The notes below the pieces were generated by a model that saw only the letters and a program-made list of their open reading frames with translations, was not told where the DNA came from and ran no database searches. A DNA stretch of 64,000 bases from positions 1 through 64,000 of the forward strand of contig CASGAM010000037.1 of NCBI GenBank assembly GCA_949299545.1. The letters are read 5' to 3'. Source of the stretch: an uncultured Prevotellaceae bacterium (GTDB lineage Bacteria > Bacteroidota > Bacteroidia > Bacteroidales > Bacteroidaceae). Position 1 is the stretch's first letter. Each line of letters begins with the position of its first letter. Position numbers and translations under genes: made by a program. This document shows positions 21,404 through 57,338 of this stretch, piece after piece.

Positions 21404-21479
21404 GCAAGCGGTTGCAAAAAAAATTGCGACCTGTCGCTTCTGCAAGGCGACAGGTCGTGTTACGAAAGCGACAGGTCGC
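21404..21479. repeat. Four-word palindromic array, copy 2
   Basis: Words start at 21404, 21426, 21447 and 21468: GCAAGCGGTTGC, GCGACCTGTCGC, GCGACAGGTCGT, GCGACAGGTCGC. Spacers are AAAAAAAATT, TTCTGCAAG (identical to copy 1) and GTTACGAAA. Words 2 and 3 are complementary and, read on the minus strand, the hairpin is followed by AATTTTTTTT, a terminator layout. The rest of the 21217-21597 gap shows only the terminator at 21526-21560 and no gene. Confidence 0.85.
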
Positions 21480-37068: not shown

Positions 37069-37289
37069 GAAAAAAAGCCGCATCGGTTAGATTGGGATAC
37101 TCATCAAATTATTCTGAAAGCCGAGAATGCTTCGTCCACCAATGGCGGGCCACGCCTTCGGGTAGCTTAATTGCCGGTGGATTACAAAGGTGGCGGGCGC
37201 TCAAAACTTGTTAGCTCGGAGTTTCATCACATCATCGATGCGGCACATTATACCAAAAAGAGGATTGTTTTCGGGCAGTCCTCTTTTTT
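37069..37289 (+). ncRNA. Structured small RNA of about 220 nt, possibly 6S-like
   Basis: The segment has its own consensus promoter and terminator and no convincing coding frame. A terminal helix closes it: GCCGCATCGGT (37077-37087) pairs with ATCGATGCGGC (37234-37244), 11 pairs with one G-U. Inside, TGAAA/CCGAG (37115-37125) pairs with CTCGG/TTTCA (37215-37226), and TCCACC..GGC (37135-37146) pairs with GCC..GGTGGA (37173-37181). A large asymmetric internal loop separates the first two helices. Size, closing stem and internal loop are what one would expect of a 6S (RNA polymerase-binding) RNA, but I cannot confirm identity by eye. It lies in the 619-bp gap between malQ and the exchanger gene and is convergent with the latter. 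Confidence 0.7.
37255..37289 (+). terminator. Terminator of the small RNA
   Basis: AGAGGATTG (37259-37267) pairs with CAGTCCTCT (37276-37284), 9 pairs with one G-U, followed by T residues to 37289. Confidence 0.88.
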
Positions 37290-37361: not shown

Positions 37362-37438
37362 GCGACCGCTCGCAGAAAAAATTACAAAGCCAGAAAAAAA
37401 AATTGCAAGCGCTTGCAAATTTTGTTGCAAGCGCTCGC
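37362..37438. repeat. Four-word palindromic array, copy 3
   Basis: Words are at 37362 (GCGACCGCTCGC), 37384 (ACAAAGCCAGAA, strongly degenerate), 37405 (GCAAGCGCTTGC, a perfect palindrome) and 37427 (GCAAGCGCTCGC). Spacers are 10, 9 and 10 bp, again A/T-rich, so the 77-bp layout is kept even though word 2 has decayed. Words 4 and 3 form a hairpin on the minus strand that is followed by AATTTTTTTTTTC, a good terminator for the exchanger gene upstream on that strand. The remaining sequence to 37543 shows nothing recognisable. Confidence 0.82.
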
Positions 37439-43705: not shown

Positions 43706-43713
43706 TATCTTTG
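43706..43713 (+). promoter_or_regulatory. -7 box of the B12 uptake operon
   Basis: TATCTTTG matches the consensus and lies about 10 bp before the first riboswitch helix. I see no clear -33 TTTG. Confidence 0.55.
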
Positions 43714-43721
43714 CAAAGTTT

Positions 43722-43951
43722 TGTTCCAACGGTCTCCCATGCGAGACCATGGATTAAAAGGGAACCGGGTGAAAGTCCCGGACAGTCCCGCTGCTGTAAT
43801 CTCCATTATGGCGTTCGCTTACAAACCCATGCCACTGTTTTTCATGAAAGAAAATGAAAGCGGGAAGGCCAAGCAACGCGGAGAAAGTCAGAAGACCTGC
43901 AAAACAGAAAGCCATGCTTGCATTCTCGTGGAAAAGAAGGGCAAGATCATG
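43722..43951 (+). promoter_or_regulatory. Cobalamin riboswitch with terminator-like platform
   Basis: The conserved core is clear: GGGAACCGGGTGAAAGTCCCGGACAG-type sequence at 43760-43785 followed by CGCTGCTGTAAT, then GCCACTG at 43831-43837, and the B12 box AGTCAGAAGACCTGC at 43886-43900. An upstream hairpin GGTCTC/GAGACC is at 43731-43747. After the aptamer, CATGCTTGC (43913-43921) pairs with GCAAG-AT-CATG (43941-43951) and is followed by CATTTTTAA, a plausible terminator. Cobalamin binding should therefore switch off the btu operon, by early termination or by blocking translation of btuB. Confidence 0.94.
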
Positions 43952-57261: not shown

Positions 57262-57338
57262 ACGAGCGGTCGCAACAAAATTTGCGACCGCTCGCCTTGT
57301 AGAAGCGACAGGTCGCAATCTTGAAAGCGAGCGGTCGC
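57262..57338. repeat. Four-word palindromic array, copy 4
   Basis: Words start at 57262, 57284, 57305 and 57327 (steps of 22, 21, 22): ACGAGCGGTCGC, GCGACCGCTCGC, GCGACAGGTCGC, GCGAGCGGTCGC. Spacers are AACAAAATTT (identical to copy 1), CTTGTAGAA and AATCTTGAAA. Words 1 and 2 form a perfect 10-bp hairpin; words 2 and 4 are also exact complements. On the minus strand, the 1-2 hairpin is followed by a short AATTTTT tract. It lies between the convergent trpA and ribE genes. Confidence 0.87.

Follow-up and report, generated by a model that had tools for sequence, protein, structure and literature searches.

Four arrays of near-palindromic words in the window

The tryptophan synthase alpha gene trpA (PF00290; 56408–57181, plus strand) and the riboflavin synthase gene ribE (Lum_binding, PF00677; 57430–58041, minus strand) converge in the window, by which we mean the whole 64,000-nt stretch of DNA that was analysed. 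Between them, 80 bp past the end of trpA, lies an array of four near-palindromic 12-bp words (57262–57338; words at 57262–57273, 57284–57295, 57305–57316 and 57327–57338) set at a pitch of 22, 21 and 22 bp. The same pitch is found in an array at 2040–2116 (words at 2040–2051, 2062–2073, 2083–2094 and 2105–2116). Two further arrays lie at 21404–21479 (words at 21404–21415, 21426–21437, 21447–21458 and 21468–21479) and at 37362–37438, where three words are intact (37362–37373, 37405–37416 and 37427–37438) and one is decayed (37384–37395). No strand is assigned to any of the four. The first-pass annotation had described these loci as sharing 12-bp words and spacers of 10, 9 and 10 bp, with length kept even in the copy with the decayed second word; both statements hold, the spacers of the 76-bp copy at 21404 being 10, 9 and 9 bp.

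A search for GCRANNNNTYGC with one mismatch gave nine word pairs and five triples at 21 or 22 bp in the window, whereas 100 dinucleotide shuffles gave on average 0.34 pairs and 0.00 triples, with maxima of 3 and 0. Since no shuffle contained a triple, a chance origin of the arrays in the window is ruled out. A consensus-free scan, which scores four alike 12-mers, direct or reverse-complemented, at 21/22-bp offsets, found just these four arrays above the maximum of five shuffles, with the array at 57262 scoring highest. We also considered a DNA uptake sequence, ACAAGCGGT being similar to a Pasteurellaceae uptake word, and rejected it, as 12 of the 13 unmismatched words in the window fall inside the arrays and one outside. 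Structured RNAs in the window are RNase P RNA (273–626), a 6S-Bacteroidales RNA (37076–37251) that ends about 110 bp ahead of the array at 37362, and a cobalamin riboswitch (43706–43918).

The pitch is fixed across the genome

The genome of the window (G000; 2.32 Mb in 41 contigs, 79% complete), of Bacteroidales type by its 6S-Bacteroidales RNA, contains about 89 array places detectable by BLAST and with a sequence model; two entries, C9:5 and C24:5, are one 141-bp sequence at two contig ends. Among 99 non-identical arrays, 179 of the 221 intervals of up to 60 bp between words are 21 bp (88) or 22 bp (91), and a further 13 are 43 bp, corresponding to one missing word; the reversed sequence, used as a control, gave 2 of 29 intervals at 21/22 bp. 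These arrays come from fetched loci that a homology search with a spaced template had picked out, as do those of two relatives described below (G012 and G014), so the regularity of pitch is partly ascertained in all three genomes. With that reservation, the 21/22-bp pitch recurs genome-wide, and the order seen in four copies is not the accident that the first-pass annotation had allowed for. Its figure of four words per array proved less strict: four is the commonest class (40 arrays), followed by three and two (27 each) and five (5), in a count that tolerates one mismatch per word at most and therefore overlooks decayed words and includes some chance runs of two. Arrays thus mostly have three to five words.

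The G000 word is GCRA-N4-TYGC. Its centre is usually CCTG/CAGG (146) or CCGC/GCGG (102), with GCGC (10), GCTG/CAGC (6) and others (three or fewer each) making up the rest. In the 39 strict four-word arrays the two inner words are of the TG type in 32 and 31 cases, and the two outer words in 19 and 18. Two layouts recur: type A, of 77 bp, is a near-palindrome, W1 AGCAAAATTT W2 TTCTACAAG W3 AAATTTTGCT W4, and type B, of 76 bp, to which the array at 21404 belongs, has a third spacer of 9 bp, GTTGTAGAA, that is near-complementary to the second. At two different places, L061 and L087, 269 bp around the arrays are 91% alike, and a FopS sRNA (RF04319) lies at L061 2211–2282, about 0.2 kb from an array.

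Many G000 arrays double as long imperfect inverted repeats, as would be expected if they acted as hairpins in RNA or single-stranded DNA, that is, as bidirectional terminators, mRNA stabilisers or REP/BIME-like palindromes. Over 28 type A copies, pairing (74.0% versus 71.6%) and covariation (0.164 versus 0.127) were each reached in 1 of 500 shuffles, whereas the measures for pairs in which both partners had changed (67 of 500) and for further pair types (70 of 500) were unexceptional. Within copies there is thus some covariation between the two halves on two of the five measures and on the number of double changes, but not on the other two. This is more than a pure binding array needs, and it counts against the reading that we prefer below. 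On the other side, no Rfam family matched the arrays in the window at the gathering score, and a search of 10 loci at E-values up to 1 gave no credible match, the mir-8186 match at L063 scoring 24 bits against a gathering score of 80.

Related species use other words at the same pitch

BLAST did not detect the G000 core in 100 relatives, nor did the model, under stricter filters, in 392 further genomes of the order. Arrays of the same design are nonetheless present in relatives: the letters of the arrays are species-specific, and their layout is not. In G012 and G014 the word is TTYGGC(TG/GC)AGAW, with 10-bp spacers such as TGAAAAATCR. BLAST gave 43 and 45 matches in the two genomes, many of them to the core only, and 40 candidates were scored in each. 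Within these homology-derived loci, which makes the figures partly ascertained, 95 of 107 intervals in G012 and 88 of 97 in G014 are exactly 22 bp. The inner SC(TG|GC) is common to the G000 and G012/G014 words, whereas the outer half-sites differ. The words of an array share a single orientation in 26 of the 34 strict G012 arrays and in 16 of the 32 from G014; in the remaining 8 and 16, orientation is mixed at an unchanged pitch, as expected of palindromic operators.

A model of the G012/G014 arrays, under stricter filters, matched 4 of 399 genomes of the family, namely G012, G014, G015 (same genus) and G544 (another genus). The words of G544 are of CTCCAATTGGAG type, and both of its loci have four words at 22, 22 and 22 bp. 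Those of G015 are of ATCTSCGCMGAT type in arrays at 22 bp: four of the six loci read include an interval of 22 bp by the word scan (L310, 44 and 22; L314, 22, 22 and 22; L318, 22; L324, 22 and 22), L327 has 44 bp only, and in L321 the word scan gave no regular array, 22-bp units being readable there by eye.

The cleanest case is G002. In a consensus-free scan of 223,551 bp, 14 places at pitch 22 scored higher than anything in five shuffles, and most of the 12 places listed carry TTGCGCAA or a close variant. When 247,540 bp were scanned for TTGCGCAA with one mismatch, 26 of 32 distances of up to 50 bp were exactly 22 bp, against 0 of 2 in the reversed sequence; the word had been learned from arrays found at 22 bp, and the comparison of pitches was not imposed. 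In a contiguous 100 kb, seven arrays appeared at pitch 22 and none at any other pitch between 14 and 35, nor was there one in any of 20 shuffles or in the reversed sequence. The spacers are unrelated from word to word, so that the units are not duplicates and the arrays are not copies of one another. In the same 247,540 bp, TTGCGCAA-like words number 186, compared with 71 in the reversed sequence, and 36 of them are in arrays of three or more. G002 also has a second type of array, built from AT-rich palindromic words similar to ATCTTTAGGCTAAAGAT that are set at 21/22 bp (joined-scan offsets 196336 and 38567).

Other consensus-free scans gave less. No de novo array at pitch 22 was found in a 20-kb piece of G012 or in 24.6 kb of G010, and 120 kb of G001 contained three weaker places, with more than one type of word. 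We considered an origin from viruses, plasmids or phages and rejected it: viral contigs gave no match to the G000 core pattern, nor did BLAST of one G000 core against plasmids or of one G012 array against plasmids and phages. A pattern scan of named genomes, a set that may not include records of the window itself or close to it, gave two matches in unrelated phyla, which we took to be chance hairpins.

The first-pass annotation had offered three readings, a protein-binding array, a modular terminator and a BIME-like element. Unrelated spacers, 26 of 32 distances at 22 bp and the absence of any other pitch in G002 favour a phased binding array over a hairpin, a terminator or a tandem duplication. 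More generally, a constant pitch with free spacers and free orientation of units fits phased sites for dimers, and hairpins or duplicated units fail to explain it. A modular terminator is disfavoured in particular, since words that all point one way in G012 and G014, and unrelated spacers in G002, leave no conserved hairpin. With pairing between arms unconserved in this way, we regard the hairpin readings as a whole as quite improbable.

Some arrays are carried between MITE-like arms

Two outward-facing arms of 85–98 bp surround a centre in 22 of 75 fetched G000 loci, a set in which L152, L168 and L169 are overlapping contig-end copies. Each arm reads TCCTTCACCTGTAA, a variable loop, GGTGAAGGAGTGAAGG, TTTTT, AAACT and TGTATAG, with ends like CYCCCTACAC..AGTTT by eye, and in several elements (L145, L147, L149 and L080) the loop is nearly the reverse complement of that of the partner arm while differing from element to element. 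By the core profile, 21 of the 22 pairs have a core between them; in the remaining pair, L150, we read the core as decayed, and L153 has one arm and no core. Terminal inverted repeats are present for the 22 two-armed loci only. Most cores are without arms, and none were detected around the array at 57262.

An arm model (R2) matched 5 of 17 other genomes of the genus: G012 (20 matches), G002 (14), G014 (13), G010 (4) and G001 (1). The arms in G012 and G014 enclose an array different from that of G000. Single arms in G002 and G001 (L208–L213 and L218) have no detected partner within the fetched stretches of up to 20 kb and border on unrelated DNA at their inner side, whereas at the contig ends L212 and L214–L217 the inner side of single arms is a common GC-rich stretch. 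One of these arms (L213, 491–581) lies 80 bp from a TTGCGCAA array. At one place, a full two-armed element in G012 (L189, 543–855) corresponds in G014 to a mini version (L221, 3179–3301) that consists of one arm hairpin without an array.

These elements raise the possibility that the array is a passenger without binding function: an internal 22-bp minisatellite in a non-autonomous, BrickBuilt-like MITE with inverted-repeat arms, multiplied by transposition and slippage. The two-armed loci, the recurrence of the arms around another array, and the unit-number shifts and the absence of consistent constraint on letters described in the next section are as such an element would have them, and target immunity could yield the even spacing reported further below. 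Against it, cores are mostly armless, neighbouring units in G002 are not duplicates, and neither a target-site duplication nor a clean empty site was found. Comparison with the genus met flanking genes of about 67–77% identity without synteny of the two, and between G012 and G014 sites were shared or complex, so that no clean empty site and no target-site duplication were seen. We consider it unlikely that the arrays are no more than such passengers. A palindromic MITE-like carrier probably helped to multiply some arrays in G000 and in G012/G014, and the BIME-like reading retains its force for these MITE-borne copies and loses it for the remaining arrays. A co-occurring transposase or DNA-binding protein, suggested by the first-pass annotation as a thing to look for, did not emerge from a search limited to one family, Y1_Tnp (PF01797), which had no match in G000 (79% complete) and was positive in 5 of 14 genomes used as a control.

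Arrays change by whole units between close relatives

Identity between G012 and G014 is 95.7% in one gene region of 4.4 kb and about 89–96% across whole array loci, and the two genomes have many array places in common. At L260/L241 exactly one 22-bp unit has been gained or lost, and by eye the same is true of L254/L273. Whole words have been replaced at L290/L268 and L230/L239. At L291/L269, with closely matching flanks, a 12-bp spacer between two inverted words is inverted in place, in a single case. We had expected array letters to be conserved more strongly than their flanks; in 19 pairs, which include six short contig-end matches and two misaligned pairs (L295/L276 and L253/L252), conservation was not consistently stronger. 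When L253/L252 is aligned whole, it is identical over the array. The pitch, by contrast, is kept between the two genomes.

The clean inversion, together with the whole-word replacement at L290/L268, the mixed orientation of units and the two-state TG/GC centre of the word, would be accounted for if a site-specific recombinase acted at the words and the arrays existed for shuffling. However, just one inversion was seen, and template switching during replication at short inverted repeats would account for it too. We regard such a recombinase system as very improbable.

Arrays of two genomes mostly avoid divergent gaps and are evenly spaced

Using a crude ORF method, we could place 62 of 70 G000 arrays, of which 37 are between tandem, 23 between convergent and 2 between divergent genes, the corresponding numbers for the 87 baseline gaps (at least 150 bp) being 47, 17 and 23. 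In G002, 13 of 14 arrays were placeable (tandem 7, convergent 6, divergent 0), the baseline for gaps of at least 70 bp being 18, 6 and 9 of 33. The divergent share is 8 of 31 in each of G012 and G014, indicating that avoidance of promoters is not general. By the same crude method, arrays overlap an ORF of at least 100 aa in 16 of 70 cases in G000, 9 of 40 in G012, 7 of 36 in G014 and 8 of 14 in G002; the ORFs in G002 are mostly short, but the array at L215 is inside one of about 800 aa. Arrays lie at a median of 201 bp (G000), 145 bp (G012) and 88 bp (G014) from the nearest 3′ end. A preference for tandem and convergent gaps in G000 is what a terminator or mRNA stabiliser would show, but 201 bp is far for a terminator.

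Some places are kept between species. An array also follows trpA in G002, starting about 92 bp past the stop codon (80 bp in the window), and each genome has its own words there; trpA was examined because it borders the array at 57262. In G015 a match to model R3 (C257:13978–14033) lies about 90 bp behind the expected end of trpA, going by coordinates only, and no array was detectable behind trpA in G001 or G007. The 3′ end of ribE in G002 is also at an array of G002 words, an array common to the counterpart of the gene that borders the G000 array at 2040. Over 100 kb of G002, picked on a contig already matched in an earlier genus comparison of flanking genes, the G000 orthologue was also arrayed for 2 of 10 genes with a 3′-end array and for 1 of 68 other genes (Fisher 0.042). 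The same test over 100 kb of G001 gave 0 of 2 versus 2 of 79 (P 1.0). Such positional tests are few.

The array places are far more evenly spaced than random in G000. Across 53 gaps on 14 contigs of at least 60 kb, the coefficient of variation (CV) of gap length is 0.56, compared with 0.92 for random placement, and one gap is shorter than 5 kb where 10.0 are expected; neither value was reached in 5000 random placements. The list used leaves aside a copy recognised by its arm pair only (C23, near 60.5 kb), whose addition would divide the largest gap, and single arms at C24:41664 and C37:91511. The mean gap is about 25 kb in G000 and 11 kb in the 100-kb stretch of G002, whose seven arrays have a gap CV of 0.31 versus 0.81 for random placement (P 0.008). 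Spacing is also even when the random sets are drawn from the non-divergent gaps that measure 70 bp or longer, both in G002 (7 of 24 gaps; P 0.016) and in the window (4 of 18 gaps; P 0.015).

Discussion

Of the readings offered at first pass, we favour the protein-binding array, since pitch is constant, spacers in G002 are unrelated and orientation is free. Specifically, we propose, with a probability of about 0.55, that the arrays are phased binding arrays for a putative dimeric protein that fills them cooperatively, and that they serve as chromosomal anchor or landmark sites. Each near-palindromic word of 12 bp would then bind one dimer of a sequence-specific protein. With some four such sites two helical turns apart, four dimers would line up along the same face of the DNA, and such neighbours may fill the array cooperatively. 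The near-absence of arrays between divergent genes and their even spread, in G000 and G002, are as expected of anchor or landmark sites, and it is from even spacing and placement near 3′ ends that we infer a possible role in organising the chromosome. Because the word differs between species while the pitch, the approximate number of words and a few of the places are kept, the array set and its cognate protein presumably co-evolve. Together these features suggest landing sites for a putative fast-evolving DNA-binding protein.

Several known systems resemble the arrays in part. The sites known as parS, matS and Noc sites are near-palindromic, about 12–16 bp long, bound by dimeric proteins and present in several to many copies per chromosome; they are as a rule single sites, and their letters are generally conserved over wide groups. 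The words described here share with them the short, near-palindromic, dimer-type form and the number per chromosome, but are set in phased arrays with letters that vary between related species. Plasmid iterons and the end sites of Tn7 and Mu are phased protein sites with a repeat length of about 22 bp. They share this phased repeat with our arrays, at which binding is putative, but are not known to occur at dozens of evenly spaced points along a chromosome.

The nearest described element is the BrickBuilt MITE of Porphyromonas gingivalis, which has 1 to 22.8 units of 23 nt without spacers and IS5-type terminal inverted repeats (GAGACC...GGTCTC; PMC4596501). Like the arrays, BrickBuilt elements are intergenic, are built of tandem units spanning about two turns of the helix that can be flanked by a leader and a tail, occur in copies with both, one or neither of these parts, and have letters limited to one species and a close relative (PMC4596501). 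The arrays differ in consisting mostly of three to five near-palindromic 12-bp words, separated by spacers at a 21/22 pitch, in the ends of their arms, and in keeping that pitch in relatives that use different words. The two could belong to a wider common phenomenon. Beyond BrickBuilt and its neighbour PgRS, we did not recognise the same layout in the titles and opening lines of abstracts of the open-licence literature.

REP/BIME elements with their RAYT proteins are likewise small palindromic repeats mostly downstream of genes (PMC3733652). The arrays differ from them in lacking a constant GTAG/CGTC foot, in the Y1 transposase not being found, and in their constant 22-bp pitch (PMC3733652). 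Among the commonest spacer types listed, GTAG occurs in at least 39 and GCAG in at least 19 of the 88 9-bp spacers of G000, and GTAG is absent from the 91 10-bp spacers of the types listed, so there is no constant GTAG/CGTC tag.

More tentatively, a family of Bacteroidales may label its chromosomes with phased four-site arrays at even distances, read by a putative nucleoid-organising protein whose word is swapped wholesale between relatives while places, pitch and number of sites are kept; this would be a bacterial counterpart of fast-evolving genome-wide DNA codes. If our reading is right, this would be a chromosome-wide system of sites whose letters turn over between relatives while their geometry is kept, for which reason homology searches miss the arrays and the 22-bp rhythm alone betrays them. 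It would point to a novel architectural protein in a widespread bacterial order, and the co-evolution of a DNA-binding protein with a genome-wide set of sites would become directly testable in cultured species.
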